From: a bacterium
GTDB taxonomy: Bacteria > DYJV01 > JALVYZ01
NCBI GenBank assembly: GCA_027037705.1
Contig: JALVYZ010000062.1
Coordinates: 1 to 15,521 of the forward strand
DNA length: 15,521 bases
Direction: 5' to 3'
In this document: in pieces, positions 1 to 15,515 of the stretch
Numbering within the stretch: position 1 is the first letter of the stretch
How the letters are laid out: the number at the start of each line of letters is the position of its first letter
Program-made: the position numbers and the translations under genes
The notes under the pieces: generated by a model
Told to the model about the DNA's origin: nothing
What the model saw: the letters and a program-made list of their open reading frames with translations, nothing else
The model's database searches: none

Positions 1-1262
1 TCTAATTTTTCTCTAACAGCTTCAATACATTGCTTCATCCCACAAGAAGAAATTTTAAGCCCCATTGGAGTTACTTGATTTTCCTCATTTGCATTTATTA
101 ACCTTAGTTCAACAGGATCTATTTTAGCTAATTTTGCAAGTTCATCTATATTTGATTCAATTGCAAATGTTGCTTGAGGATTACCATAACCTCTGAATGC
201 CTGGGCATAAATATTATTTGTGTAAACACATGTAGCTTTGAAGTAAACTGCTGGAACTTTATATAAAGAACTCATTGGGACAAACATAACAGAAGGAGTT
301 GTAGCTCCCCAAGATGTATAAGCTCCATTATCAAGTAAAGCCGTGGCTTCTCTAAATGTTAACTTTCCATTTTCATCACATCCCTGAGTTATTTCAATAA
401 TCGTTGGTTGCCTTGGTACCATTCCAACAAATTCTTCTTCACGAGAAAATAAAATTTTCACTGGCTTTCCAGTCATATATGATAAAATTATAGCAATAAA
501 ATCATGACAGTGAGTATCAAGTTTATTACCAAATGCACCACCTATTGCTGGAGAAATAACTCTTACTTTTTTGTCTCCAAGTCCCAGGGCTTTCATTAAA
601 TCGTAAAAATCAGCTTGAGCTAAAAAAGGAATTTGAGTTGGCATCCATACAGTTAAATTTTTATTTATATCAAACTCTGCAATAATACCTGTTGTTCCCA
701 TACAGCAATGATGAACCCATGTAGTTTTGTAAGTGCTTTTGACTATATATTTAGATTTTTTCTTCCATTCATCAATATCTCCATGGGATATTTCCCAATT
801 TAAAGGAAGAATATTTGATTTGTTTCTCTCATGAATAATAGGAGCACCTTCTTTTAATGCTTCTTCAGGAGTAAAAACTCCAGGTAAAGGTTCATACTCT
901 ATTTCTATCAAATTAATTGCTTCTTCTGCAATTTCAGGAGATATTGCTGCCACTGCAGCTACTTCATCTTTAAAATTTCTAACTTTATCATATTTTATAA
1001 CTGGATTGTCTTTCATAAAACCTATTGCAAAATTTTTTACTGGATTGGTATCTCTCGTGAGAATTGCTTTAACTCCAGGAACCTTTTTAGCTTTTGAAAT
1101 ATCTATATTTACAATTTTGGCATGAGCATATTCACTTCTTTTAATTTTAGCATAAAGCATATTTTTTCTTTTCAAATCATGAATATATTGAGCTTCTCCT
1201 AATATTTTTTCAGGAGCGTCTAATTTTGGAACTGGCTTCCCTATAAATTTAAAATTACTCAT
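1..1262 (-). CDS. Molybdenum hydroxylase (xanthine dehydrogenase family) large subunit L2, C-terminus outside window
   Basis: This is an open frame of 420 codons from ATG at 1262 to the left edge with no stop, so the gene is partial. It is the molybdopterin-binding large subunit of a xanthine dehydrogenase/CoxL-type hydroxylase, which adds water-derived oxygen to a heterocycle or aldehyde carbon. The N-terminal domain is typical (residues 1-130 or so). The moco-binding GGAFGNK motif is at 241-247 and the canonical FRGYGNPQ loop at 356-363. In the substrate-pocket motif, normally H-x-x-[LM]-E-[PT], I read HHCCMGTTG (184-192), with Gly189 in the Glu position. The C-terminal catalytic-Glu segment lies beyond the window. 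The start is 9 bases after the 2Fe-2S subunit stop and preceded by AGGAGGT, so translation is coupled in an M-S-L operon. About 41 of the first 70 residues are identical to L1 (13138-15426) by hand alignment. The substrate is unknown. Confidence 0.9.
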   Translation of the reverse strand, partial: MSNFKFIGKPVPKLDAPEKILGEAQYIHDLKRKNMLYAKIKRSEYAHAKIVNIDISKAKKVPGVKAILTRDTNPVKNFAIGFMKDNPVIKYDKVRNFKDEVAAVAAISPEIAEEAINLIEIEYEPLPGVFTPEEALKEGAPIIHERNKSNILPLNWEISHGDIDEWKKKSKYIVKSTYKTTWVHHCCMGTTGIIAEFDINKNLTVWMPTQIPFLAQADFYDLMKALGLGDKKVRVISPAIGGAFGNKLDTHCHDFIAIILSYMTGKPVKILFSREEEFVGMVPRQPTIIEITQGCDENGKLTFREATALLDNGAYTSWGATTPSVMFVPMSSLYKVPAVYFKATCVYTNNIYAQAFRGYGNPQATFAIESNIDELAKLAKIDPVELRLINANEENQVTPMGLKISSCGMKQCIEAVREKL

Positions 1263-1271
1263 ATAAACCTC

Positions 1272-1739
1272 CTATTTCTTCCATAACGATTTTACTGCAT
1301 CAATTATCTGAATATAACCTGTACATCTACATAGATTTCCTGCTAATGCTCTTTTTATCTCCTCTTCTGTTACATCTTCTCTATCTTTATTTTCTCTATA
1401 AAATGCCTCTGTTGACATAATCATTCCTGGAGTACAGAATCCACATTGAACTGCGCCATTTTCCCAGAAAGCTTTCTGAATTAAACCAAAATCTCCATCA
1501 TTTTGCATCCCTTCAATGGTAATAACTGTTTTACCGTCAACTTCAACAGCAGGATACAAACAGCTATTTATATTTTTCCCATCTACTAACACAGTACATG
1601 CGCCACATTCTCCAATTCCACAACCTTCTTTTACACCTGTTAATCCTAAATTTTCCCTTAAAACATCTATAAGCATTGTATCTTCTCTGACTGCAACTTC
1701 AACAACATCTCCATTTAATATAAATCTAATTGTTTTCAT
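1272..1739 (-). CDS. Molybdenum hydroxylase 2Fe-2S subunit (CoxS/XdhC-like)
   Basis: This 155-residue protein has the normal length for the small iron-sulfur subunit of molybdenum hydroxylases. The N-terminal plant-ferredoxin-like domain carries Cys40, 45, 48 and 60 (CGIGECGAC and a later Cys). The C-terminal helical domain carries Cys99, 102, 137 and 139 (QCGFCTPG and LCRCTGY). All eight ligands of the two 2Fe-2S clusters are therefore present. It passes electrons from the molybdenum centre in the large subunit to FAD in the medium subunit. It lies 16 bases after the M gene and 9 bases before L2, with a GAGGT ribosome binding site, giving an M-S-L operon. There is no signal peptide, so it is cytoplasmic. 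The family is certain; the partner is most likely L2, though L1 is possible. Confidence 0.96.
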
Positions 1740-1755
1740 TTTTTACCTCATTTAC

Positions 1756-2622
1756 CTAAATTAATTTTGCTCTTTTATACGCAATCATTCCCACTCTTTT
1801 AATATATGCTTTAATTATCTCTCTTTTATGCCATTCTTTTCCTCTTATATCATCAATTGGCGAACATTCTTTTTTTGCTATATTTCCAGCTTGTTCTAAA
1901 ATTTCTTCTGAAAATTTTTTATGAATTAAAAATTCTTCTGTACCAGTAGCTCTTATTGGAGTAGGAGCAACAGTTGTTAATCCTACTTTAATATCTTCGA
2001 TTATATCATCATCTCCAATTTTTATATTCATTGCCACTCCAGCATTTGCTAAATCCATAGCATTTCTTTTCATAAATTTATAATAAGCTGAACCTGAATT
2101 CTTTACTGGTTTTTTAAGTAAAAAACCTTTAACAATCTCTTCTTCAGCGAGAAAAACTTGTTTTGGACCTTTAAAAAATTCATCTAAAGGAAGTTCCCTT
2201 TCCTTAAAATCATCCATAATAATTACAACTTTTGCATCATAAATTAATAATGGACTGGCAGTATCTGCTCCTGGAGAAGCATTAACAATATTTCCACCAA
2301 TTGTTCCAACATTTCTTATTTGAACTGAAGCCATATTAATAAGAGCATCATATAATGCTGGAAAATATTTTCTTACAACTTCAGATTGTTCAAGCTCTCT
2401 TAAAGTTGTTCCTGCTCCAATAAAAACAAACTTTTCATTTTCTTCTATTCCTTTAATTTCATTCAAATTCCTTAAAGAAATAAGTGCATCAGGTTTTATA
2501 GCTTTTTTCTTGATTAAAACAAAAATATCTGTGCCTCCAGCGACATATTTTGAATTTTTATATTCTTTTTTTAAATATATTGCTTCACCTACAGAACCTG
2601 GTTTAAAATATCTAAAGTTCAT
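1756..2622 (-). CDS. Molybdenum hydroxylase FAD-binding subunit (CoxM-like)
   Basis: This 288-residue protein is the FAD subunit of a molybdenum hydroxylase (CO dehydrogenase medium-subunit fold). It shows the two FAD pyrophosphate-binding motifs of the family: AGGTD at 28-32 and TIGGNIVNASPGAD at 107-120. The CoxM C-terminal domain follows. The length is standard. The extra cysteine-rich loop that holds a 4Fe-4S cluster in 4-hydroxybenzoyl-CoA reductase is absent, and I see a single Cys, near the C-terminus. This argues for an oxidative hydroxylase rather than a dearomatising reductase. It is the first gene of the M-S-L2 group, with a GGGAG ribosome binding site before ATG 2622. It follows the binding-protein gene after a 129-base gap holding a hairpin and a heptamer array. 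Confidence 0.94.
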   Translation of the reverse strand: MNFRYFKPGSVGEAIYLKKEYKNSKYVAGGTDIFVLIKKKAIKPDALISLRNLNEIKGIEENEKFVFIGAGTTLRELEQSEVVRKYFPALYDALINMASVQIRNVGTIGGNIVNASPGADTASPLLIYDAKVVIIMDDFKERELPLDEFFKGPKQVFLAEEEIVKGFLLKKPVKNSGSAYYKFMKRNAMDLANAGVAMNIKIGDDDIIEDIKVGLTTVAPTPIRATGTEEFLIHKKFSEEILEQAGNIAKKECSPIDDIRGKEWHKREIIKAYIKRVGMIAYKRAKLI

Positions 2623-2721: not shown

Positions 2722-2754
2722 ACTCCTGACTCCTGACTCCACACTCCCGACTTA
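2722..2754. repeat. ACTCCNG heptamer array at the 3' end of the binding-protein gene
   Basis: Four period-7 units, ACTCCTG, ACTCCTG, ACTCCAC and ACTCCCG, are followed by ACTTA. The last unit contains the TAA stop (2752-2754) of the upstream gene. On the mRNA sense strand it reads as repeated GGAGT cores. Confidence 0.9.
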
Positions 2755-3888
2755 TTTAACCAACTTCCACTTTCCATTAACAACTTGAACCATTACCACA
2801 TCATTTAAACCTAAACCATTATGATCTTTAGGTGTAATTTTATAAATTCCACTTATACCAACATATCCATATGTTTTATTTTCAAGATAATCTCTAATCT
2901 TTTCTCTGTCACAACCAACATGTTTTAACGCTTCCAATACTAAGTATGCTGCATCAACACCATATGCAACCATTGTCCCTGGATAGTATCCATATTTTTC
3001 TTTAAAAATTTTAACAAAATGTAAAATTTTCTTTTTCTGAGGGTCAGAATTTGGAAGTTGGTCAGCCACATAAATTTTTGTTGCAGGCATTAACACTCCT
3101 TCTGCAGCATCTCCAGCTACTTTTAAGAAAATTGGGTCACACTGACCGTGGCATTGGAATAATGGCTGCTTCATTCCAAGTCTCTTTTTATTTTTTGCAA
3201 TAATTCCACCAGCTGGACCAATTGTCCATGCAATAATTGCATCAGGATTTTTGTCTTTTACTTTAACAAGCTGTGTTGTCATATCAACATCTTTTCTATG
3301 AAAACTTTCTGCTGCAACCATTTTAACACCATATTTAGGTGAAAGTTTCTTTGCAACTTTATATCCATCTCTTCCAAATCCATCAGCAGAATATAAAAAA
3401 GCATATGTTTTTAATCCATGTTTTTTCATATATTGAAAAATTTTTCCAAGAGCAACAGAGCTTCTATATGGAGATTTAAAGACATATTTAACAGGTGGCT
3501 TATCAATAATTATATCACTACCTGCATGCATAAATGTTGGAACATGCATTTTATTCACATAAGGTTTAACAGCCATTCCTGAACCAGTAGTTGTTGGACC
3601 AATAATTACACAAACCTTGTCCTGCTCAACAAGTTTCTTTGCCCCAAGAAGAGCTTTTGTAGGATTCATTTGAGTATCAACTTCAATTAATTCAATTTTT
3701 TTACCATTAATTCCTCCATGAGCATTTGCTTCTTCAAAGATCAATTTACAAGCATTCTTTTGGGCAATTCCTATATGAGCTGCTGGGCCAGTTAATGCAA
3801 AAAGTCCTCCAACTTTAATAACTCCACCAGCAAATAATGAACCTGCAAAACATAAAATAATTCCCAGAATTAATAATAGTTTTTTCAT
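2752..3888 (-). CDS. ABC transporter substrate-binding protein, LivK/type 1 periplasmic family
   Basis: This 378-residue precursor has a clear signal peptide: KK, a hydrophobic stretch, then SLFA before GG, with likely cleavage after residue 20. The Cys at 13 has no proper lipobox, so a soluble periplasmic protein is more likely than a lipoprotein. The mature protein starts with the branched-chain amino-acid-binding-protein signature (KVGGLFALTGPAAHIG). It continues with ANAHGGINGKKIEL and VIIGPTTTGSG, typical of peripla_BP_6. This family also binds aromatic acids in degradation clusters, which suits the neighbouring ligase and hydroxylase. No permease or ATPase genes of the transporter are in the window. 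A very strong AAGGAGGTG site precedes ATG 3888. The ligand cannot be read from the sequence; an aromatic or N-heterocyclic acid is my inference. Confidence 0.93.
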   Translation of the reverse strand: MKKLLLILGIILCFAGSLFAGGVIKVGGLFALTGPAAHIGIAQKNACKLIFEEANAHGGINGKKIELIEVDTQMNPTKALLGAKKLVEQDKVCVIIGPTTTGSGMAVKPYVNKMHVPTFMHAGSDIIIDKPPVKYVFKSPYRSSVALGKIFQYMKKHGLKTYAFLYSADGFGRDGYKVAKKLSPKYGVKMVAAESFHRKDVDMTTQLVKVKDKNPDAIIAWTIGPAGGIIAKNKKRLGMKQPLFQCHGQCDPIFLKVAGDAAEGVLMPATKIYVADQLPNSDPQKKKILHFVKIFKEKYGYYPGTMVAYGVDAAYLVLEALKHVGCDREKIRDYLENKTYGYVGISGIYKITPKDHNGLGLNDVVMVQVVNGKWKLVK

Positions 3889-3929: not shown

Positions 3930-4010
3930 TTAGTGTTAGTGTTGGTGATAGTGTTAGTTTAAAATTTTTTATTATTCATTTTTAACTTTTAATTAAAAGA
4001 TTCCCGACTA
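3930..4010. repeat. Composite repeat: TTAGTG hexamers, AT-rich spacer, short ACTCCNG end
   Basis: Five in-phase hexamers (TTAGTG, TTAGTG, TTGGTG, ATAGTG, TTAGTT; 3930-3959) are followed by TAAAATTTTTT and an AT-rich spacer. One and a half heptamer units (ATTCCCG, ACTA; 4000-4010) then end exactly with the TAG stop of the ligase gene (4008-4010). The same order of parts recurs at 13034-13121. Confidence 0.85.
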
Positions 4011-5300
4011 ATATCTCTTATCAAAAATCCTTTTTGTCTTTCTTTCTGACCTTGGCAATGTTCTATAATCAACTATTTCAACAATTGTATTAACTAATAA
4101 TCTTTTTTTAATTTCAAAATTTATTTCTCTTGCTAATTTTTTATCTTGTGATTTATCACCGTCTTCAGCTCTTTCCACTTTTAAGATCATATAATCTTTT
4201 CCATCATCTCTTCTCTCTAAAATAACTTGATATTCACTACCTATACCTTCAATTTGTGATAAAATTGAATCTATTGAACCTGGATATATGTTTACACCTC
4301 TAAAAATAAACATATCATCACTTCTACCAAGGATTTTATCATGCCTTGGAAGAAAACAACCACAAGGACAGTCATCTCCAATAATGAGCTTTGTCAAATC
4401 TCTTGAACGATATCTTATTAATGGTGCAGCTTCTTTCCATAAAGTAGTATAAACCATCTCTCCTATCTCTCCAGGAGCAACTGGTTTTAATGTTTTTGGA
4501 TCTATAATTTCAAGTATATAAAAATCAGCCCAATAATGAATTCCAGTATGATATTTACAATCAAGTCCTGTTCCTGGGCCATAAAGTTCTGTCATTCCAG
4601 GGATGTCAAATATTTCTTCAGCTCCAGAAAGTTCTTTAATTTTCCTAATTATTGCATCAGAAGTCCTTTCAGAACCAAGAATTATTTTTTTCAAATTAAT
4701 TTTATCTCTTACACCTCTCCTATTTATTTCCTCTGACATTAATAATGCCATTGAAGCTGTACAGCACATAACAGTTGATTGAAAATCAATTAAAAATTCT
4801 ATCTGCATATCAAGATTCCCTGGTCCAGTTGGAATCGCCATTGCTCCATACTTTTCACATGCAAGCTGAAATCCAACTCCCGCTGTCCACACCCCATATC
4901 CTACACATATTTGAACTCTGTCTTCAGGAGTTAATTCTGCCATTTCATAACATCTTGCAAACATATAAAGCCAGTCATCAATATCTTTCTGAGTATAGCA
5001 TAAAATTTTTCTTTTTCCTGTGGTCCCACTTGAAGCATGTATTCTTACAATATCCTTAAAATCCACGCTTCTTAAAGGAAAAGGATAACCTGCTCGTAGA
5101 TCATCAGCAGTTGTAAATGGTAATTTTTCAATATCTTCAAGAGATTGGATATCATCAGGTTTTACCCCTGCCTCATCAAATTTCTTTTTGTAAAATGTAG
5201 AATTGTTATATGCATGATTTACAGTCCATTTTAACCTTTCAAGCTGTAATTTTTTTAATTCTTCCATATTATTAACTTTTGGAGGAAATCTCTTTAACAT
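4008..5300 (-). CDS. paaK: Phenylacetate-CoA ligase family (PaaK-type) aryl-acid CoA ligase
   Basis: This 430-residue AMP-forming acyl-CoA synthetase is at the usual PaaK length. The ATP phosphate loop SSGTTGK is at 90-96. The adenylation motif GMTELYG is at 235-241 and RYRSRDLT at 296-303. The PaaK C-terminal signature GRSDDMFIFRGVNIYP is at 325-340. A C-terminal LPRSERKTKR segment supplies the lysine expected near the adenylate (421/423). CPCGC lies at 311-315. The enzyme activates an aromatic acid to its CoA thioester with ATP. Indoleacetate-CoA ligase (IaaB) of Aromatoleum belongs to this same family, and the hydantoinase and mutase neighbours favour an N-heterocyclic acetate over phenylacetate. 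That is inference. The start at 5300 has GGAG at a good distance. The TAG stop sits in a repeat unit. Confidence 0.93.
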   Translation of the reverse strand: MLKRFPPKVNNMEELKKLQLERLKWTVNHAYNNSTFYKKKFDEAGVKPDDIQSLEDIEKLPFTTADDLRAGYPFPLRSVDFKDIVRIHASSGTTGKRKILCYTQKDIDDWLYMFARCYEMAELTPEDRVQICVGYGVWTAGVGFQLACEKYGAMAIPTGPGNLDMQIEFLIDFQSTVMCCTASMALLMSEEINRRGVRDKINLKKIILGSERTSDAIIRKIKELSGAEEIFDIPGMTELYGPGTGLDCKYHTGIHYWADFYILEIIDPKTLKPVAPGEIGEMVYTTLWKEAAPLIRYRSRDLTKLIIGDDCPCGCFLPRHDKILGRSDDMFIFRGVNIYPGSIDSILSQIEGIGSEYQVILERRDDGKDYMILKVERAEDGDKSQDKKLAREINFEIKKRLLVNTIVEIVDYRTLPRSERKTKRIFDKRY

Positions 5301-5659: not shown

Positions 5660-5669
5660 TCATGACTTA
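5637..5669. repeat. ACTCCNG heptamer array overlapping the HyuB gene end
   Basis: The units are ACTCCCG, ATTCCGC, ACTCCAG and ACTCATG, followed by ACTTA. The last ten bases overlap the coding end of hydantoinase B: the TGA stop (5660-5662) and the codons for the last residues lie inside the array. Confidence 0.9.
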
Positions 5670-7393
5670 GCATTTCTAATTTTCATAGTCTGTTCAAAAT
5701 CAACTTCTAAAGTCTCTGGATTAATTACAACTCCATAATCTTCTTTTGCTTTTTCTATTGAAACAAAGCCATTTCTCACATCATATAATACTGCATTTAT
5801 ATCTCTTTTGTATGGATGTCCCCATCCACCTCCACCACCTGCTTCTTGATAATAAATTGTCCCTTTTGGCACATTTTCAATTAAATCTTTAGATTTACAT
5901 TTATAAACTTTACCATCAGGATAGGTAAGTTCTATTTTATTAAGTGTTCCTGGTTTTCCACCATGTGCTCCAAATGCAGGTTCAACATCTCCATCTCCAA
6001 AAGTAACAACTTTAGTATTATCACTTCCAATTATAAATTTTGTTATCACTCCAACACCACCTCTCCATTGACCAGCTCCTCCTGAATCTGTCCAGTATTC
6101 ATGTTTTAACAACAGATGGGGTGTTTGATGCTCAAACATTTCATAATCTTGATCAAGTACACCACCAGAGGCATCAATCATTCCAATATGATCATATCCA
6201 TCACATCCTTTTATTGCTCCAGATCCACCTTTTAATCCCATAAATCCAATATCTACATAAGGTTCATTCTTTCTTGGGTCAATTCCAGTTGTTAAAGAAC
6301 ATAATAATTCATCCCATTCAGCAGTTACTCTATCAGGAATTACAGGAGATAATGCCCTCATAATTGCATCAGCATTATTTGGACATAAATGATTACCATA
6401 AGTGGTAGCAGCTGGAAATTTAGCATTTAAAACTGTTCCTTCAGGAATAATTATATTAATAGGTCTGACCATCCCATCGTTATGTGGAATGTCTGGATTT
6501 ATCATCTGTAAGAAAGTTAAAATTGTTGCTGATGCACTTGAGGTAAAAGTTCCATTAACAAATCCTGGGGTTTGAGGGTCTGTATCTGAATAATCAAAAG
6601 TTATTTTTGTGTCTTCAACTGTAATTTTAACTCTTATTGTATAAGAAGATCCTTCATTTCTTCCATCGTAATAACCAGTTGCTTCTCCATAATATACCCC
6701 ATTTGGAATTGTTCTAATTTCATTTTCCATCATCTTTTGAGTTGAATCAAAAAGATACTCTTTATGCGCTTCAAACACATCAACTCCGTATCTATCAATA
6801 AGTTTTAGAAGTTCTCTTTCTCCTACAACACAACTTCCAATTTCAGCTTTCATGTCTTCTTCAACAATCTTTAATCTTATATTAGCAAATATTAAATTCC
6901 AAACATCTTTTCTTAATTTACCTTTTTCATAAACTTTTACAGGAGGTATTCTTAATGCTTCTTGCCATACTTCTGTCGCATTTGGATTATATCCTCCCTG
7001 AACACATCCACCAATATCAGCCTGATGTCCTTTACATGCTGCCCATCCTACAAGTTCATCTTTATAAAAAATTGGTTTATATACAGCAACATCATTATTC
7101 TGATTTCCCATTGAAAAAACATCATTATGAAATATTACATCACCAGGATAAATTTCATCTCTAAAATAGTTAACAATATATTCGCAGACAGGTGCAAGTG
7201 AAAATGCTAATATAGGAAGATTTTCTGTCTGTTCAAGCATTTTACCGTTTCTATCATATAGACCTGTTACAAAATCTCGTGCTTCGCATAAAATTGGACT
7301 TCTTGTTGTTTTCTCAAGAGCAATACTCATCTCATTTGTAATTGCTTTTAGCCTCTTTCTTAAAATAGAAACAAGCACTTTATCTATTTTCAT
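5660..7393 (-). CDS. hyuB: Hydantoinase/oxoprolinase subunit B (HyuB family)
   Basis: At 577 residues this is the normal length for HyuB and much shorter than the roughly 770-residue acetone carboxylase alpha subunit. With HyuA it should form a cytoplasmic ATP-dependent amidohydrolase or carboxylase that opens lactam/imide rings or acts on ketones. Family landmarks are the PGDVIFHND segment (83-91), DVAVYKPIF (101-109), GHQADIGG (122-129), and the glycine-rich end with GGAGQWRGGVG and EAGGGGGWGHPYKR. The usual GGTH in the metal-site region is MGNQ here (95-98), marking a divergent subfamily. GGGGG precedes ATG 7393. It is separated from hyuA by a DUF2283 gene and two repeat arrays. No third (gamma) subunit of the acetone carboxylase kind is present. 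Lactam opening of an oxidised N-heterocycle is the best-fitting role by context. Confidence 0.93.
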   Translation of the reverse strand: MKIDKVLVSILRKRLKAITNEMSIALEKTTRSPILCEARDFVTGLYDRNGKMLEQTENLPILAFSLAPVCEYIVNYFRDEIYPGDVIFHNDVFSMGNQNNDVAVYKPIFYKDELVGWAACKGHQADIGGCVQGGYNPNATEVWQEALRIPPVKVYEKGKLRKDVWNLIFANIRLKIVEEDMKAEIGSCVVGERELLKLIDRYGVDVFEAHKEYLFDSTQKMMENEIRTIPNGVYYGEATGYYDGRNEGSSYTIRVKITVEDTKITFDYSDTDPQTPGFVNGTFTSSASATILTFLQMINPDIPHNDGMVRPINIIIPEGTVLNAKFPAATTYGNHLCPNNADAIMRALSPVIPDRVTAEWDELLCSLTTGIDPRKNEPYVDIGFMGLKGGSGAIKGCDGYDHIGMIDASGGVLDQDYEMFEHQTPHLLLKHEYWTDSGGAGQWRGGVGVITKFIIGSDNTKVVTFGDGDVEPAFGAHGGKPGTLNKIELTYPDGKVYKCKSKDLIENVPKGTIYYQEAGGGGGWGHPYKRDINAVLYDVRNGFVSIEKAKEDYGVVINPETLEVDFEQTMKIRNAKS

Positions 7394-7414: not shown

Positions 7415-7505
7415 ATGCGTTAATGCGTATATGAGTTTATGCGTAAATGTATATATGAGAATAATAAATTTTCCGCATCTTCGCATATTCGCTTCTACGC
7501 ATTTA
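7415..7505. repeat. Inverted ATGCGTNN octamer array
   Basis: Six in-phase octamers (ATGCGTTA, ATGCGTAT, ATGAGTTT, ATGCGTAA, ATGTATAT, ATGAGAAT; 7415-7462) face four inverted octamers (CGCATCTT, CGCATATT, CGCTTCTA, CGCATTTA; 7474-7505) across an AT-rich centre. The right arm matches that of the element at 12501-12604 at 26 of 29 positions. Confidence 0.92.
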
Positions 7506-7767: not shown

Positions 7768-7799
7768 ACTCCCGACTCCGCACTCCAGACTCCAGACTA
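7768..7799. repeat. ACTCCNG heptamer array ending in the HyuA stop codon
   Basis: Four in-phase units, ACTCCCG, ACTCCGC, ACTCCAG and ACTCCAG, are followed by ACTA. The final CTA (7797-7799) is the TAG stop of hydantoinase A on the minus strand. Confidence 0.92.
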
Positions 7800-9905
7800 A
7801 TTATTTACAATCCTTTTCCTAACTTCTTCTTCTCTATCTTTCAAATAAATTGTATAGTTTCCATACATATCCACAAGCACATTATATTCAGGAGTCACAA
7901 ATGTAGTAGTATTGTCCTGTTCTAAAATTGCTGGACCTTCAATTCTATTTCCAAATTCAAGCTTTAATGCATCAAATACATTAACTTCTTCAAACTTTTG
8001 CTGAACTGGTAAAAAAACTTTTCTTGTATTTTTAAAAGCATTTTCTGGACTTTCCCCTTTATATTCCATTTTTAAAAATTTTGGCTTATCTGTCTGTCCA
8101 ACAGCAATTAATCTTAAATTTATAATTTCAATTGGCGTACCTTCATCTTCAAGAGAGTATCCAAATAATCTATTATGTTGAGGATGGAATTTTTTAGCAA
8201 TTGAATCCCAATCTGCATTAAAAATATCTTCTTCTTCAACCTCTATTGTTACTTCATGATATTGTCTCACATATCTTAAATCTAATTGATATATAAATTT
8301 CATATTATTTTCAGGGATACCTTCTGATTTTAAAAGTTTTGCACCCTCTTCCTTCATCTGAACAAAATAATTTTTAAATTTTTTAACATCAGCCATGTCC
8401 ATTCTTGTTACATAACTTTGGACAAAATCGTGTTTTAAATCAGACATTAACATTCCAGCAGCACATAAAATTGATGATTCTCTTGGAACTATCATTACAG
8501 GAATTTCAAGTTCTCTTGCAATCATACAGGCATGATTTGGGCCTGCTCCACCTGCTACAATCATTGGTAAATCTCTTGGATCGACGCCTTCTTTTACTGC
8601 TACTTCCCTAACAGCTGCTGCCATGTTAACATTAATAACATTATACATCCCAGCAGCTGCTTCATAAAGATCATATTTTAATGGTTTTGCAATTTTTTCC
8701 ATAATTGCTTTTTCTGCTTTTGGTTTATTTAATTTAATTCTACCACCTGCAAAGTAATCTGGATCAAGATAACCTAAAATCAAGTCTGCATCTGTGCATG
8801 TTGGCTCTTCTCCTCCAAGGTCATAACAAACTGGACCTGGTTTTGATCCTGCACTTTGTGGTCCCATTCTAAGTAAGCCACCTTCATCAATCCACCCAAT
8901 GCTACCTCCTCCAGCTCCAATTGTAACAACATTTAACATTGGAAGTGCAATTCTTAATCTATTAATATCTCCTGTAGTAGTTGTTGTAGGTTTATTATCT
9001 TTAACAACTGACGCATCAAAACTTGTTCCTCCCATGTCGACAATTAAACAATTATTGTAATTTTGCGCATTTGCATAAAATGTTCCTGCGACAGGACCTC
9101 CTGCTGGACCTGACAGCAAAGTTATTGCTGCTCTTTTCATTGCATTTTCTGGAGAAACGACACCACCATTTGAGGCCATAATTAACAAAATACCCTCAAA
9201 ATCATTATCTGATAATTTTTTAATCAATGCTTTTAAATATCTTTCAAGAATTGGTCCCACATAAGCATTAAGACATGTTGTTGAAACTCTGTCATAAAAT
9301 CTAACTGAAGGTAAAAGCTCTGAAGAAACAGATATATAAGAATTAGGAAGAGATTCCTTTACAAGTTCAGCAACTCTTTTTTCATGAGAATCATTAGCAT
9401 AAGAATGCATAAAACAAATAGCTACTGCTTTAACATCTTCTCTTTTAAATTTTTCTATTTGCTCTTTTGCTTGATTTTCATCAAGGGGAGTAATAACATT
9501 TCCACTCCAATCAATCCTTTCTTTCACTGGTAATCTTAAATATCTCTCAACTACAGGCTTAGCATTTTTATATCTATTGTTATACTGTTCTTCTCTGATG
9601 CCTCTTCTCATTTCTAAAGCATCTATAACTCCTTCAGTAGTTAATAATCCTGTTTTTACTCCTGTATATGTTAAAGTTGCATTAGTAGTAACAGTTGTTC
9701 CATGAACTATAACATCTACCTGTTTCAAAAAGTCTGGAGTTGACAATCCTCTTTTATCAGCCATTTCTGAAATACCCTTCATTGTTGCAATCGAAGGATC
9801 ATCAGGAGTTGACAACACTTTATATATCTCATTTGTCCCATCTGGAGTTGTAAGTAAAAAATCAGTAAATGTACCTCCAACATCAATTCCAATTTTATAA
9901 CCCAT
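7797..9905 (-). CDS. hyuA: Hydantoinase/oxoprolinase subunit A (HyuA family)
   Basis: This 702-residue protein, counted from ATG 9905, is the ATP-binding subunit of the hydantoinase/oxoprolinase/acetone-carboxylase family. It carries the acetate-kinase/actin-like phosphate motif IDVGGTFTD near the N-terminus, then HGTTVTTNA, LLSGPAGGPVAG, VDMGGTSFDAS, IGAGGGSIG and VAGGAGPNHA in order, ending with the usual C-terminal beta-rich domain. With HyuB it should couple ATP hydrolysis to ring opening or carboxylation. An in-frame TTG at 9920 gives a longer frame, but the GAAGGAGGG site sits between TTG and ATG, so I chose 9905. It follows the mutase gene across a hairpin-forming repeat. The exact substrate cannot be told from sequence. 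Context suggests an oxo-indole-like lactam. Confidence 0.94.
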   Translation of the reverse strand: MGYKIGIDVGGTFTDFLLTTPDGTNEIYKVLSTPDDPSIATMKGISEMADKRGLSTPDFLKQVDVIVHGTTVTTNATLTYTGVKTGLLTTEGVIDALEMRRGIREEQYNNRYKNAKPVVERYLRLPVKERIDWSGNVITPLDENQAKEQIEKFKREDVKAVAICFMHSYANDSHEKRVAELVKESLPNSYISVSSELLPSVRFYDRVSTTCLNAYVGPILERYLKALIKKLSDNDFEGILLIMASNGGVVSPENAMKRAAITLLSGPAGGPVAGTFYANAQNYNNCLIVDMGGTSFDASVVKDNKPTTTTTGDINRLRIALPMLNVVTIGAGGGSIGWIDEGGLLRMGPQSAGSKPGPVCYDLGGEEPTCTDADLILGYLDPDYFAGGRIKLNKPKAEKAIMEKIAKPLKYDLYEAAAGMYNVINVNMAAAVREVAVKEGVDPRDLPMIVAGGAGPNHACMIARELEIPVMIVPRESSILCAAGMLMSDLKHDFVQSYVTRMDMADVKKFKNYFVQMKEEGAKLLKSEGIPENNMKFIYQLDLRYVRQYHEVTIEVEEEDIFNADWDSIAKKFHPQHNRLFGYSLEDEGTPIEIINLRLIAVGQTDKPKFLKMEYKGESPENAFKNTRKVFLPVQQKFEEVNVFDALKLEFGNRIEGPAILEQDNTTTFVTPEYNVLVDMYGNYTIYLKDREEEVRKRIVNN

Positions 9906-9909
9906 TTTT

Positions 9910-9918
9910 CCCTCCTTC
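9910..9918 (-). promoter_or_regulatory. Ribosome binding site deciding the HyuA start
   Basis: GAAGGAGGG on the minus strand lies four bases before ATG 9905. It would lie inside the coding sequence if the TTG at 9920 were the start, so 9905 is preferred. Confidence 0.85.
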
Positions 9919-9926
9919 AATAGTGC

Positions 9927-10003: not shown

Positions 10004-11641
10004 TTAAAATATCCTCGGTTCTTTGAATTCACCAAAAACTTCTCTAAATACATTAGCCATTTCGCCCACTGTTGCATAAGCTTTACAGCATTCAACAAGA
10101 TACGGCATTACATTTTCACCTTTTTTAGTTGCTTTCTCAAGTTCTTTTAATGTTTCTTGTACTTTTTTATTATCTCTATTTTTCTTTAATTTTTTTAATT
10201 CCTTAATTTTTTTCTCAGCTGCCTCTTCATCATATTCATGAAGTTGAACTTCTTGCTTTTCCTCTTTCATTTTATATTTATTAACACCAATTTTTATATA
10301 TTCACCTTTTTCAATTCCTTTTTGAAATTCATAAGCTTGTTTTGCAATTTTAGCTTGAATATAACCATCTTCAATTGCTTTAAGCATTCCCCCATAGTCC
10401 TCTATCTCTCTCATCTCTTCTAAAATTTTGTCTTCCATCTGTTTTGTAATTGTTTCCACAAAGTATGAACCTGCAAGGGGATCAACTGTATCACGAAGAC
10501 CAACTTCATCCATTAGAATCTGAAGTGTTCTAAGAGAAATAAGTGCAGATTCTGGAGTTGGAATAGTATAAGCTTCATCATATGAACATAATGCTGTTGT
10601 TTGAGCTCCACCAAGAGCTGCAGCAAGAGCGTAATACGCACCTCTTACAATATTATTCATTGGTTGCTCTTTTGTAAGTCCTGAACCTCCTCCTCCAAAT
10701 AAACCTCTTAAAAATAATACTTTTTTACTTTTCTTTCCTGCACCATATCTTTCTTTTAAATTTTTAGCCCATAATTTGCGGGCAGCTCTGAATTTTGCAA
10801 CCTGTTCCCATAAATTACCGTATATATTGAAGTTAAAAGTTATTCTTCCTGCGAAATCATCGATATCAATCCCTCTTTTTAAAACTTCATCAATATAAAC
10901 ATTTGCAATTAAAATAGCATAAGCAATTTCCTGTGCAGGAGTTGCACCAGACTCTCTAATATGATAACCACAAACACTTACAGGATTACATTTAGGAAGC
11001 TCTTTTGCAGAATATTCCATTGTATCACCAATTAATTTTACAGAAGGTCTTGGAGGATAAATCCATGCACCTCTTCCTATAATTTCTTTTAAAATATCAT
11101 TTTGAGGTGTTGCGCTTATAACCTTTTTGTCATAACCATACTTTTCTGCAACTGCTTGAAACATTGCAAGCATAATTGAGGCAACTGCATTTATTGTTAA
11201 GCCAACTCCAATCTTATCTAACGCAATATCTTTAAATGCAATTTCAAAATCTCTTAATGTATCCACTGCCATGCCAACTCTTCCAACTTCTCCCTCTGCT
11301 TTTGGATCATCAGAATCAAGTCCCATCTGAGTTGGCAAATCAAATGCAACATTTAAACCAGTTTGTCCTTGAGATATAAGCAATTTAAATCTTTCATTAG
11401 TCTGTTCAGGAGTACCAAACCCTGAATACTGCCTCATTGTCCATGCACGAGTTCTATAACCCTGTGGATGTATTCCTCTTGTAAATGGAAATTCTCCTGG
11501 ATCATTTAATTCTTTTTCATAATCAAATCCTATCTCTTTTAAATCCTCTGGAGTGTAAACAGGCTTAACTTTTATTCCTGATAAATATTCTACCTCTAAA
11601 ATTCTATCCTTTTCATCTCTAATATACTTTGCTACTCCCAT
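10004..11641 (-). CDS. B12-dependent acyl-CoA mutase large subunit (methylmalonyl-CoA mutase family)
   Basis: This 545-residue protein is the substrate-binding TIM-barrel subunit of a split B12 mutase. The B12 domain is a separate gene (12082-12477). By alignment with Propionibacterium mutase, the methylmalonyl-type specificity residues are kept: Tyr72 in MRQYSGF (Tyr89), Ala99 in VAFD, Arg190 in IIGRGAWIYPP (Arg207, binds the free carboxylate) and the GYH His227 (His244). Isobutyryl- and 2-hydroxyisobutyryl-CoA mutases differ at these sites. It should therefore interconvert a succinyl-type and a malonyl-type CoA ester. In this cluster that could be plain methylmalonyl-CoA or an aryl-substituted analogue such as (2-aminophenyl)succinyl-CoA. 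A Lys/Glu-rich linker lies around residues 450-510. AAGGAAG precedes ATG 11641. A toxin-antitoxin pair separates it from its small subunit. No MeaB-type chaperone gene is in the window. Confidence 0.93.
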   Translation of the reverse strand: MGVAKYIRDEKDRILEVEYLSGIKVKPVYTPEDLKEIGFDYEKELNDPGEFPFTRGIHPQGYRTRAWTMRQYSGFGTPEQTNERFKLLISQGQTGLNVAFDLPTQMGLDSDDPKAEGEVGRVGMAVDTLRDFEIAFKDIALDKIGVGLTINAVASIMLAMFQAVAEKYGYDKKVISATPQNDILKEIIGRGAWIYPPRPSVKLIGDTMEYSAKELPKCNPVSVCGYHIRESGATPAQEIAYAILIANVYIDEVLKRGIDIDDFAGRITFNFNIYGNLWEQVAKFRAARKLWAKNLKERYGAGKKSKKVLFLRGLFGGGGSGLTKEQPMNNIVRGAYYALAAALGGAQTTALCSYDEAYTIPTPESALISLRTLQILMDEVGLRDTVDPLAGSYFVETITKQMEDKILEEMREIEDYGGMLKAIEDGYIQAKIAKQAYEFQKGIEKGEYIKIGVNKYKMKEEKQEVQLHEYDEEAAEKKIKELKKLKKNRDNKKVQETLKELEKATKKGENVMPYLVECCKAYATVGEMANVFREVFGEFKEPRIF

Positions 11642-11652
11642 GTTTTCTTCCT

Positions 11653-11901
11653 TTATTTTTTATAACTTTCTTTTCTATGGAAAATTCTACCTATTTCAAT
11701 TGTATCATTTACTACATCAAATAATACCCTATAATTTCCAACTCTTAAACGAAAAGCTGGTTGAAAATTAGACAACTTTTTTAAATTAGAAACATTTGGA
11801 AAATTTTTTAATTCTTCTATTTTTTCATAAATCTTCATTTTTTCTTCTTTTGGAATACTTCTTAAATCTTTAATGGCACTTTTTCTAATATTTATCTTCA
11901 T
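11653..11901 (-). CDS. RelE/ParE-family toxin
   Basis: This 82-residue protein has the RelE fold pattern: an N-terminal KSAIKDLRSIPKEEKMKIYEKIEELK helix pair (7-32), KKL (41-43), the core strand FRLRVGNYRVLFDV (50-63), and the C-terminal RIFHRKESYK (72-81). It has the Arg/His/Tyr residues expected of ribosome-dependent mRNA interferases. It overlaps the end of the antitoxin gene by 17 bases (11885-11901), the usual coupled type II arrangement. It ends 11 bases before the mutase large-subunit start, so the pair sits inside the mutase operon. Whether it is active is unknown. Confidence 0.9.
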   Translation of the reverse strand: MKINIRKSAIKDLRSIPKEEKMKIYEKIEELKNFPNVSNLKKLSNFQPAFRLRVGNYRVLFDVVNDTIEIGRIFHRKESYKK

Positions 11902-12076
11902 TCTTTATAAATTCTTCAAATGGAACAGTCTCTTCTCCTCTTGTTTTAGCCAATAAAATCAAATCATTGAAATCTTCTTCAGATACAATTTCAACTTCGT
12001 CTTTTAATTTTCTTAAAAACCAATTAATTTTTTCATAAGTTTCTTTGTTTTTGACATTTATAGTTATAGTATGCAT
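11885..12076 (-). CDS. Antitoxin partner of the RelE-type toxin
   Basis: This is a small acidic protein of 63 residues. Its N-terminal segment (MHTITINVKNKETYEKINWFL) could form a strand-helix DNA-binding or dimerisation part. Its C-terminal acidic tail with VPFEEFIKNED is typical of a toxin-wrapping helix. Sequence family cannot be named with confidence (RelB/Phd-like). The call rests mainly on size, charge and the 17-base overlap with the RelE-type gene downstream. It begins 5 bases after the mutase small-subunit stop, with only a weak GGAG-like site (AGGAGTAAT) that overlaps the end of that gene, implying coupling to it. Confidence 0.8.
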   Translation of the reverse strand: MHTITINVKNKETYEKINWFLRKLKDEVEIVSEEDFNDLILLAKTRGEETVPFEEFIKNEDKY

Positions 12077-12081
12077 AATTA

Positions 12082-12477
12082 TTACTCCTTAATCTCCTCT
12101 TTCAAAAATTTTATTGTCTCTTCAAGTGGAGTTCCTCCAGGAAATACTCCTTTTATTCCTAACTCTTTTAATTTTGGGATATCTTTATCAGGAATTACTC
12201 CACCTATAAAAACAACAATATCCTGAGCACCTTTTTCTTTTAATTTTTCCATTATCTTTTTTGCATAATATAGATGAGCACCAGAATATATACTTAAACC
12301 AATTGCATCAACTGATTCTTGAAGAGCAATATTTACAATTTCATCAATTGTTTTATGTAATCCTGAATATATAACTTCCATTCCAGCTTCTTTTAATGCA
12401 TGACATACAATTTTAGCTCCTTTATCATGCCCATCAAGTCCTGGTTTTCCAATTAACACCCTAATCTTCCTTCCCAT
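12082..12477 (-). CDS. B12-binding small subunit of acyl-CoA mutase
   Basis: This 131-residue protein is a stand-alone C-terminal cobalamin-binding domain of the methylmalonyl-CoA mutase family. The base-off/His-on motif DxHxxG is at Asp15, His17 and Gly20 (KPGLDGHDKGAK). SGL is at 38-40, the SGAH loop at 65-68, and the nucleotide-tail glycines at 92-93 (IGGVIP), all in order. His17 should be the lower ligand of cobalt. It works with the large subunit at 10004-11641 to catalyse radical carbon-skeleton rearrangement. The split layout is common in archaea and many anaerobic bacteria. GAGGT precedes ATG 12477. The upstream gap holds the second inverted octamer element. Confidence 0.95.
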   Translation of the reverse strand: MGRKIRVLIGKPGLDGHDKGAKIVCHALKEAGMEVIYSGLHKTIDEIVNIALQESVDAIGLSIYSGAHLYYAKKIMEKLKEKGAQDIVVFIGGVIPDKDIPKLKELGIKGVFPGGTPLEETIKFLKEEIKE

Positions 12478-12500: not shown

Positions 12501-12604
12501 ATGCGTGAATGGGTATATGCGTAAATACGAAATTATTTTATTTATCTCCACATCTACTCATCTACGCATTAACGCATCTTCGCATTTACGCTTCTACGCA
12601 TCTT
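12501..12604. repeat. Inverted ATGCGTNN octamer array, second copy
   Basis: Left arm: ATGCGTGA, ATGGGTAT, ATGCGTAA, ATACGAAA (12501-12532). After an AT-rich centre the right arm has seven inverted octamers in phase (CACATCTA to CGCATCTT, 12549-12604). The right arm overlaps the end of the epimerase-like gene and supplies its TAG stop (12594-12596) and last codons. Confidence 0.92.
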
Positions 12605-13019
12605 CCTCAAATTTAAATTCCCCATCAATAATTTCAGTTAAAACCCCGCACATCTCTTTAGGATAGTTTATAAAAGCATATCTATTTCCAAAAAGTTCTC
12701 TTGGTTTTTCATCTATCAATTTATAGCCTTTATCTTTTAATTCTTTTAATTTTTTTTCTACATCATCAACTTCATACGAAATTAAGAACACACCTTCGCC
12801 GTTCTTTTTAATAAATTTTGCAACTTCTCCATCAGGTGATGTTGATTCCATAAGCTCTAAAGCAACTTCTCCAATATAGTATCTTGCAACCTTAATCTTT
12901 TCACTCTCCGCTATGTATTCGCAATAAAGTTCCAATCCCAAAACATCCTCATAAATCTTTTTTGCTTTTTCTAAATCCTTAACAGCAATGCAAATATGAT
13001 CAATTTTTTTTGCTTTCAT
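12594..13019 (-). CDS. VOC-family protein, methylmalonyl-CoA epimerase-like with altered metal site
   Basis: This 141-residue single-domain vicinal-oxygen-chelate protein is most like methylmalonyl-CoA epimerase: IDHICIAVKDLEKAKKIYEDVLGL at the start, VALELMESTSPDGEVAKFI, a YEVDDVEKKLKELKDKGYKLIDEKPR block, and GVLTEI near the end. Of the usual metal ligands, His8, an acidic residue at 55 (usually Gln or Glu) and Glu129 are present. The His-His of the GxHHIA motif is Phe78-Leu79 here. It may still epimerise the malonyl-type CoA ester for the mutase next door, perhaps with another substrate, or may have another role. TAAGGAG precedes ATG 13019. Its stop lies in the octamer element. Confidence 0.85.
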   Translation of the reverse strand: MKAKKIDHICIAVKDLEKAKKIYEDVLGLELYCEYIAESEKIKVARYYIGEVALELMESTSPDGEVAKFIKKNGEGVFLISYEVDDVEKKLKELKDKGYKLIDEKPRELFGNRYAFINYPKEMCGVLTEIIDGEFKFEEDA

Positions 13020-13162: not shown

Positions 13163-15426
13163 TCCTCCAACGCCTTTAATATCTTATCTGGAGTAATTGG
13201 AAAATCTTTTATCCATACTCCTACTGCATCATAGATTGCATTAGCTATTGCCTGAAATGAATTCATTGAACCAAAAAGTCCTGCTTCTTTTGCACCAAAT
13301 GGTCCTTTTGGATCATTTGTAATTACAGCATCAGCATAAACATTTTCTGGAACATCTAAAGAGGTTGGTATTTTATATTCAAGAAAATCAGCATTTAAAA
13401 CTTTACCATCTTTAAAAATATGTTCTTCTTTTAATGTGCTGCCAACACCGCCAGAAGCTATTGAACCTTCATATTGTCCCTGAACACCTTTTATATTTAT
13501 TGGAAAACCACAATCATGAAAACCAACTGCATTTATAATTTTAACTTCTCCTGTGTTTGTATCAACTTCAACTTCAACTGCATTTGCCCCAAAACTAAAT
13601 GTTGTGGCCTGCTGACCCACGGGATTTTTAACCCATTCCCTATCATTTGAAACTTCAGGCATGTAATGTCCTCTTCCCATAACATGCCTGTTTTCTATTA
13701 ATCCTTTTCTTATAACCTTATGCAATGGCACCTGCTTTGATTTATCTTTTTTAGAAAAAACAATTTTATTTTCTATATCAAGCTCATCTTCAGAGCAATT
13801 TAACATTTCAGAAGCTAATTTTAAAATCTGAGCTTTTGCATCTTCACAGGCTTTTTTAACTGCATTTCCAGATACTAAAACTGCTGCCTGAGAATATGCC
13901 CCAACATCTAAAGTTGTAACCTCAGTATCTCCAGCTACAATATGAATTTCTTCTGGAGGTACTCCCAATACTTCTGATGCTATTTGAACCATTGCATGAT
14001 AATTACCCTGACCATTATCTATTACTCCAGAAATAATTGTTGGATACCCATCTTCATTGAATTTTACAAAACAGCTTGAGCCTCCTCTTATTCCCATTGG
14101 AAATCCACACATCATACCATTTGCTCCAATTCCAACGCCTCTTCCAAATGGAAGTTTTCCTCTTTTTTTATCCCACTCTATTTTTTCAGCTGCTTTTTTT
14201 ATTGCTTCTTTTAATCCACAACTGTAAATTTTAGATTTTGTTGCCTGCATATCTCCTGGATTTAAAGCATTTCTTAACCTTATCTCAACTGGATCAATTC
14301 CTAACTCCTCTGCTATCATATCAAGCTGCATTCCAAGTCCACCTAAAAAAGCTCTACCATGGCATCTATACATTCCCCTAATAGGCTTATTTGTGTAAAC
14401 TCTGTATGAATTTAATCTTACATTTTCCAATTTATATGTTTCTTCCCACACTAAGAATGGGACAGAAGCTGCTATTGGTCCTGTACTTGAATACGCACCA
14501 CCATCCATTATAACTTTAATATCCTGAGCTAAAATTTTCCCGTCCTTTGTAACTCCAGTTTTTGCATACATTACCATTGAATGCACCTGACGGGTGCATA
14601 TCATACTTTCCTCTCTTGTATATACAACCTTTACAGGTCTTCTTGCTTTTATTGATAAAAGAGAAGTTATAAAATCCAATGGAAAAATATCAGATCTGCC
14701 ACCAAAAGCTCCTCCAATTGTAGGCCTTCTCACAATTACCTTATTTAATGGTATATGCAATAAATTTGAAAGAGCTTTTGCCTTTGTATGAGGACTTGCA
14801 TTTGGCATCCATATCTCAATTGAACCATCAGAATGATAATATGCAATAACAGCGTAAGGCTCAAGCATTCCATAGCCTTCATCTTTTGATGTGAATTTAT
14901 CTTCTCTAACTAAATATGCTTTTTCAAAAGCTTTATCCACATCTCCAACATCTATTTTTACATGAATATTTATATTATTAGGATGGTCTTCATGAATTAA
15001 TGGGGCACCATCTTTCATTGCCTCTTCTGCATCAAAAACTGCTGGAAGTGGTTCATAATCCACTTTAATTAAATCAAGTGCTTCTAAAGCTGTTTCTTCA
15101 TCAACTGCAGCTACTGCTGCAACTTCTTCACCAATAAATCTCACTTTATCAGACGCAATTAACTGATGATCTCTTGTATATTTAAAAACTCCCCATTTTT
15201 CTCCAAAAGTATCATCTCTTGTAATTACCGCTTTAACTCCTGGAACTTTTTTAGCTTTTGAAACATCTATGTTTAAAATTTTTGCATGAGCTAAAGGACT
15301 GTGTAAAACCTTTCCAACAAGCATATTAGGTAATTTTATATCAGCAGTATAAAGAGCATCACCTGTTGCCTTTTGTGGAGTATCAATTCTCGGGATTCCT
15401 TTACCAAGGATTTTATAATTACTCAT
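13138..15426 (-). CDS. Molybdenum hydroxylase large subunit L1 with altered active-site residues
   Basis: This 762-residue protein is a full-length xanthine dehydrogenase-family molybdopterin subunit. It shows the N-terminal domain, MLEP (187-190) in the pocket motif, moco motif GGAFGGR (238-244), the YRCHGR loop (353-358), a GQGNYHAMVQIASEVLG segment and the C-terminal GPFGAKEAGL (708-717). Two key sites differ. Cys355 replaces the usual Gly of FRGxG, at the position of the S-bound Cys in form I CO dehydrogenase. Leu717 replaces the catalytic Glu of the KGxGE motif. The SR pair usual before the late glycine motif is QA. The rest of the protein looks intact, with no frameshift. GGAGGTAATTAATG gives the start. 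No small or medium subunit genes are next to it, so it may share those at 1272-2622. Whether it catalyses hydroxylation is uncertain. Confidence 0.9.
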   Translation of the reverse strand: MSNYKILGKGIPRIDTPQKATGDALYTADIKLPNMLVGKVLHSPLAHAKILNIDVSKAKKVPGVKAVITRDDTFGEKWGVFKYTRDHQLIASDKVRFIGEEVAAVAAVDEETALEALDLIKVDYEPLPAVFDAEEAMKDGAPLIHEDHPNNINIHVKIDVGDVDKAFEKAYLVREDKFTSKDEGYGMLEPYAVIAYYHSDGSIEIWMPNASPHTKAKALSNLLHIPLNKVIVRRPTIGGAFGGRSDIFPLDFITSLLSIKARRPVKVVYTREESMICTRQVHSMVMYAKTGVTKDGKILAQDIKVIMDGGAYSSTGPIAASVPFLVWEETYKLENVRLNSYRVYTNKPIRGMYRCHGRAFLGGLGMQLDMIAEELGIDPVEIRLRNALNPGDMQATKSKIYSCGLKEAIKKAAEKIEWDKKRGKLPFGRGVGIGANGMMCGFPMGIRGGSSCFVKFNEDGYPTIISGVIDNGQGNYHAMVQIASEVLGVPPEEIHIVAGDTEVTTLDVGAYSQAAVLVSGNAVKKACEDAKAQILKLASEMLNCSEDELDIENKIVFSKKDKSKQVPLHKVIRKGLIENRHVMGRGHYMPEVSNDREWVKNPVGQQATTFSFGANAVEVEVDTNTGEVKIINAVGFHDCGFPINIKGVQGQYEGSIASGGVGSTLKEEHIFKDGKVLNADFLEYKIPTSLDVPENVYADAVITNDPKGPFGAKEAGLFGSMNSFQAIANAIYDAVGVWIKDFPITPDKILKALEEKRLKDEG

Positions 15427-15459: not shown

Positions 15460-15515
15460 ATGCGTATATGCGTTAATGCGTGGATGCGTGTATGCGTAAA
15501 TGAGTTCATACGTCA
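15460..15515. repeat. ATGCGTNN octamer array upstream of L1, third copy
   Basis: Seven perfectly phased octamers: ATGCGTAT, ATGCGTTA, ATGCGTGG, ATGCGTGT, ATGCGTAA, ATGAGTTC, ATACGTCA. The window ends six bases later, so an inverted right arm like those at 7415 and 12501 may lie outside. Confidence 0.92.

Follow-up and report, generated by a model that had tools for sequence, protein, structure and literature searches.

Enzymes of the xanthine oxidase family are regarded as relying universally on one glutamate as their catalytic base (PMC10420851), and variants of this residue in characterized members are inactive. For example, mouse AOX1 carrying the Glu-to-Gln change E1265Q shows no detectable activity (PMC2671166). 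The bacterial DNA analysed here (15,521 nucleotides, hereafter called the window) encodes a molybdenum (Mo) subunit of this family, L1, for which a preliminary description had reported leucine at the position of this glutamate. This raises the question of whether the substitution is genuine and, if so, what such a protein might do. The answer also bears on annotation, because L1-type proteins risk being read as 4-hydroxybenzoyl-CoA reductase (HCR) or xanthine dehydrogenase.

Leucine at the position of the catalytic glutamate

The L1 gene (13138..15426; all genes and residues located below also lie on the minus strand) is an intact reading frame, as initially described, and encodes 762 amino acids without internal stops. 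Its product carries the Pfam domains MoCoBD_1 (PF02738), MoCoBD_2 (PF20256) and Ald_Xan_dh_C (PF01315), and its best PDB match by HMMER is the HCR alpha subunit from Thauera aromatica (1rm6_A, E = 7e-124). The motif of interest (GPFGAKEAGLFGSM, L1 residues 708-721, 13264..13305) retains Lys713 and aligns with 1rm6_A free of gaps, GPFGAKEAGL in L1 being matched to GPFGAKEASE, whose final residue is HCR Glu726. A MAFFT alignment that included bovine xanthine oxidase, the sequence of which was confirmed by PDB search, likewise places Leu717 (CTT, 13276..13278) opposite bovine Glu1261 and HCR Glu726. Furthermore, an AlphaFold2 model of L1 (pLDDT 91.9, pTM 0.91) superposes on 1rm6_A as its closest known fold (Z 45.8, rmsd 1.8 Å over 749 residues). 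Therefore, the leucine at the position of the catalytic glutamate is real.

The preliminary description had named Glu714 as the residue that might face the Mo center instead. This residue corresponds to HCR Glu723, which is extra to the catalytic Glu726, and so Glu714 is ruled out as the true base. HCR carries Glu at both motif positions, whereas L1 does so only at the first. L1 is also not a decayed gene, as evident by the purifying selection indicated by a dN of 0.16 against a saturated dS of ~2.1 in comparison with a homologue of 80% identity, and by the conservation described below.

A clade with a rebuilt molybdenum pocket

A survey of homologues extends the observation from a single leucine to a replacement by Leu or Met throughout a clade, coupled with loss of the equivalent of bovine Gln767. 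The residue could be read in 56 distinct sequences of the subfamily and is Leu in 32, Met in 24 and Glu in none. Six different Leu codons, in addition to ATG, are found at this position, and the diversity of codons among the Leu members indicates that the residue is not an inherited error. Other checked relatives outside the subfamily have Glu, with Gln occurring twice; the more distant relatives L037 and L038 carry Gln through separate changes on the tree. In a tree of 94 rows, which was built by a quick method with the trait column left in, the Leu/Met rows make up one side of a single branch (support 100, one change), and Glu is retained in the rows closest to this clade, L035/L052 and L009/L010.

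Subfamily members, at 52-77% identity, are present in 57 of 395 Desulfobacterota genomes, or approximately one in seven of a sample composed mostly of metagenome assemblies. They also occur in two Chloroflexota genomes and in the window's own order. Plasmid records yielded only homologues of 37-38% identity, and our literature search found neither natural xanthine-oxidase-family enzymes without the catalytic Glu nor published biochemistry for the L1 clade. Judged from these sequences, the clade is a distinct and intact branch of the family whose loss of Glu is common to dozens of anaerobic bacteria, rather than a product of error or decay. An artefact of alignment, sequencing or assembly, or drift in one genome, might be suspected because the window derives from a fragmented assembly of 496 contigs. 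However, this explanation is refuted by the gap-free alignment, the structure match and the 56 distinct sequences drawing on seven codons, and we consider its probability negligible.

The bovine residue Gln767 contacts the Mo oxo group, and several other bovine residues have established roles at the pterin site. At the Gln767 position (HCR Gln214), L1 carries Ala210 (14797..14799), and the 61 subfamily members examined have Ala (58) or Gly (3). Glu-bearing sister lineages already have Thr or Met there, which indicates that the Gln767 equivalent was lost before the Glu. Two other sites are invariant in the subfamily: His356 (14359..14361), a candidate acid/base that aligns with HCR His360 and bovine Phe914 and is His in 61 of 61 members, and Phe442-Pro443 (14098..14103), which align with bovine Phe1009-Thr1010. 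Gln513 (13888..13890) occupies the bovine Ser1080 position, where subfamily members have Gln or Met. The equivalents of bovine Glu802 and Arg880 are Ser and Val/Ile, respectively.

Unlike these positions, the residues of the pterin site are kept. Gln473 (14008..14010), within the GQG motif, corresponds to bovine Gln1040 and is Gln in 60 of 61 members, and Gln651 (59/61) and Lys713 (56/56) are similarly retained. Thus, L1 has the family fold and the Gln1040, Gln1194 and Lys1257 equivalents in common with xanthine dehydrogenase/oxidase and aldehyde oxidase, but lacks those of Glu1261 and Gln767. HCR (HcrABC, 1rm6/1sb3) resembles L1 in the fold and length of its Mo subunit (33% identity, rmsd 1.8 Å), in its His360-type residue and in its GPFGAKEA motif, and differs by having Glu726 and Gln214 where L1 has Leu717 and Ala210. 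A natural clade that lacks both the Glu and the Gln at the Mo oxo group while keeping its cofactor-site residues makes the purpose of the glutamate, and the capacity of the fold without it, directly testable.

Partner subunits and the indoleacetate gene cluster

In relatives, genes for a [2Fe-2S] subunit (S1) and an FAD subunit (M1) adjoin that of L1, and in the window's genome the L1-type [2Fe-2S] and FAD subunits are encoded on contig C394. M1 aligns with the HCR beta subunit (HcrB), including all four cysteines of its additional [4Fe-4S] cluster; these cysteines are present in 62 of 62 flavoproteins that partner L1 and in 0 of 62 L2-type partners. L1 and M1 are not HCR equivalogs, as evident by scores that fall below the NCBIfam cut-offs (654.2 bits versus 994.55 for TIGR03194, the best family for L1, and 203.8 bits versus 404.55 for M1 with TIGR03195). 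L1 is the Mo subunit of its own HCR-type trimer (L1, FAD/[4Fe-4S] and [2Fe-2S] subunits).

With a complete HCR-style electron chain of its own, L1 should have no need of L2, the second Mo subunit encoded in the window (3..1262, an ORF truncated by the window edge). L2 in turn has a separate full set consisting of S2, a [2Fe-2S] subunit assigned by profile match (1272..1739), and M2, an FAD subunit (1756..2622) that lacks the [4Fe-4S] loop, as do 62 of 62 M2-type proteins. The likely continuation of L2 on contig C397 reads GAKGIGE and so has Glu. The earlier suggestion that L1 might be a structural partner of L2 is thus not supported, given the subunit set of L1, and L1 is also often encoded far from L2. 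Elsewhere in the window's genome (G000:C470; L004:1-1674, 2122-2580), another Glu-bearing Mo large subunit is followed by an amidohydrolase that, by eye, resembles the enamidase of anaerobic nicotinate degradation.

The remaining genes point to anaerobic indoleacetate degradation by the iaa pathway, whose operon was reportedly first described by Ebenau-Jehle et al. in 2012. Encoded in the window are a two-part B12-dependent acyl-CoA mutase with an IaaG-like large subunit (10004..11641, TIGR00641), which co-occurs with L1, and an IaaH-like B12-binding small subunit (12082..12477, TIGR00640); the alpha (HyuA-type, 7797..9920) and beta (HyuB-type, 5660..7393) subunits of an ATP-dependent lactamase, both assigned by profile matches; a PaaK-like CoA ligase that is an IaaB candidate by profile match (4008..5300); and an ABC substrate-binding protein assigned from sequence as an IaaM-like candidate (2752..3888). 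Together with contig C394, which supplies a family III CoA transferase and an acyl-CoA dehydrogenase, the set includes L2, a GntR regulator and a LIV-type ABC transporter with its binding protein. The CoA ligase, CoA transferase, B12 mutase, hydantoinase-type lactamase and Mo enzyme of the pathway (PMC8360864; lactamase, PMC5214803) are all present together, and by this gene content the window is an anaerobic indoleacetate cluster. A sequence motif supports this assignment: in place of the YEG of other acyl-CoA dehydrogenases, IaaF enzymes are reported to carry GGG (PMC8360864), and the acyl-CoA dehydrogenases of the window's genome (L084) and of L007 read GGGTSEI.

At the level of gene sets, the correspondence with the iaa operon known from Aromatoleum aromaticum and from strict anaerobes covers the CoA ligase, lactamase, CoA transferase, mutase, GGG-type dehydrogenase, GntR regulator, binding protein and Mo enzyme. 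The difference is that two Mo enzymes are found here, the Glu-bearing L2 and an accessory Glu-less L1 with its VOC protein. This methylmalonyl-CoA-epimerase-like protein (12594..13019; TIGR03081, 107 bits with a cut-off of 115) is encoded close to L1 in 26 of 45 loci, whereas no VOC gene was found in any of the 15 L1-less iaa loci examined. By gene linkage, anaerobic auxin degradation would involve L1 as a second Mo enzyme.

Several minor features of these loci were also observed. Between the window's mutase genes lie a ParE-type toxin gene (PF05016) and a small upstream ORF (11653-11901 and 11885-12076); in the relative L063, the two mutase genes are adjacent. Degenerate 8-base repeats (GCATYWAC-like) form intergenic arrays at 7415-7502, 12509-12601 and 15460-15503, with 23 loose matches versus 1.4 expected. 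In the first two arrays, minus-strand copies are followed by plus-strand copies. The strict repeat pattern also occurs on five other contigs, although a reversed control pattern yields 6 matches versus 11. Two HyuAB types are found in otherwise similar iaa clusters, sharing 64-82% (L115-L117) or 31-42% (L157-L161) identity with that of the window. A Chloroflexota cluster bearing L1 (L082/L083, G065:C27) includes mutase, L2, ETF and acyl-CoA carboxylase genes, and may serve a different substrate because its acyl-CoA dehydrogenase has VEG rather than GGG.

Among the 395 Desulfobacterota genomes, the iaa-type mutase is present in 76, L2 in 74 and L1 in 57. L1 and the mutase occur together in 52 genomes, with L1 alone in five and the mutase alone in 24, and L2 and the mutase occur together in 69. 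The Fisher values for co-occurrence are extreme, but they overstate independence because the genomes are related. L1 lies inside the iaa cluster in the window, G001, L115 and L117, and some other L1 loci have no iaa genes nearby. For example, in L118, L119 and L125, the neighbours of the L1 homologues are genes for a class III aminotransferase and a saccharopine-dehydrogenase-like protein. In genomes lacking L1, the iaa clusters retain a Glu-bearing L2 beside the CoA ligase. This arrangement favours L2 over L1 for indole hydroxylation, making L2 the likely indole hydroxylase and L1 an added enzyme. A search for the Aromatoleum or Ferroglobus Mo subunit gave no match among 369 Gammaproteobacteria or among 101 relatives of an archaeal genome; with no positive control in the sample, this negative result is uninformative.

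Possible functions of L1

Because both classic second-sphere Mo residues are replaced (Glu1261 by Leu or Met, Gln767 by Ala or Gly), L1 is probably unable to hydroxylate substrates in the usual way, in which Glu assists the attack by Mo-OH. A hydrophobic Leu or Met would hold a base away from Mo. The low-potential cluster in the partner subunit suggests instead that L1 probably reduces an aromatic CoA thioester. We infer that catalysis would run in the reductive direction, with ferredoxin feeding electrons through FAD/[4Fe-4S] and [2Fe-2S] to the Mo center, as in HCR, where the thioester would be reduced with the invariant His356 as a presumed proton donor. Reductase function alone would not account for the missing Glu, since HCR retains this residue. 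Overall, we see roughly an even chance that L1 is an HCR-like low-potential reductase with a carboxylate-free Mo pocket that acts in or beside indoleacetate catabolism. Of the possibilities raised in the preliminary description, an alternative mechanism or a non-hydroxylating paralogue is the better reading.

It could be argued that L1 is nonetheless the indoleacetyl-CoA C2-hydroxylase of the pathway, with His356 or bulk water serving as the base in place of Glu. L1 adjoins CoA transferase and mutase genes, its HCR relatives accept CoA thioesters, and the published pathway begins with indoleacetyl-CoA (PMC8360864). However, complete iaa clusters without L1 carry the Glu-bearing L2 beside their CoA ligase, which disfavours L1 as the sole indole hydroxylase. 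The inactivity of the AOX1 variant and the fit of a low-potential [4Fe-4S] subunit with reduction also count against this proposal, and we regard it as unlikely. The loss of a residue regarded as essential, along with the Gln767 equivalent, might alternatively signify a catalytically dead subunit with a regulatory or structural role, perhaps as a partner of L2. The strong purifying selection on L1, its retained pterin-site residues, its full complement of electron-transfer subunits and its frequent distance from L2 render this proposal highly improbable.

The distribution of L1 leaves some room for a role off the main route of iaa-degrading anaerobes, in a side pathway or an adjacent one, where non-hydroxylating redox chemistry with the VOC protein might act on a different indole or on an amino-aryl compound. 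Of the 76 mutase-bearing genomes, 24 lack L1, and some L1 loci hold VOC, saccharopine-dehydrogenase-like and aminotransferase genes with no iaa genes. Yet 52 of the 57 genomes with L1 also have the iaa-type mutase, and the gene is embedded in the iaa cluster itself in the four cases listed above. On balance, we consider such a placement possible but not probable.

A plausible and chemically attractive reaction for such a reductase would be reductive removal of the amino group that the indole ring leaves on the aryl moiety, for example by conversion of 2-aminobenzoyl-CoA to benzoyl-CoA. 2-Aminobenzoyl-CoA is the expected end product of the iaa route, and its reductive deamination is a tentative candidate for the L1 step. 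HCR-annotated proteins induced by aniline or 4-aminobenzoate in Desulfatiglans anilini have been proposed to be reductive deaminases, acting on 4-aminobenzoyl-CoA (PMC7500099). Simple deamination leaves unexplained both the tie to the VOC protein and, elsewhere, the saccharopine-dehydrogenase-like and aminotransferase genes. The benzoyl-CoA-pathway marker bamA (TIGR03200) does not discriminate between the two groups of iaa genomes, being present in 43 of 54 with L1 and 21 of 23 without, and a search of the window's own genome gave no match. The marker is thus about as common without L1 as with it, which indicates that benzoyl-CoA can be reached without L1. A broader proposal, which we put forward as speculative, is that L1 founds a class of Mo enzymes with the xanthine oxidase fold but no active-site carboxylate, which would cleave a C-N bond of a CoA thioester reductively, an aryl deamination that would serve as the deamination step of anaerobic indole/anthranilate catabolism. 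Reductive dehydroxylation is carried out by another xanthine-oxidase-family enzyme, Ucdh, the Enterocloster urolithin dehydroxylase, which is closest to HCR (PMC12771579) but only remotely related to L1.
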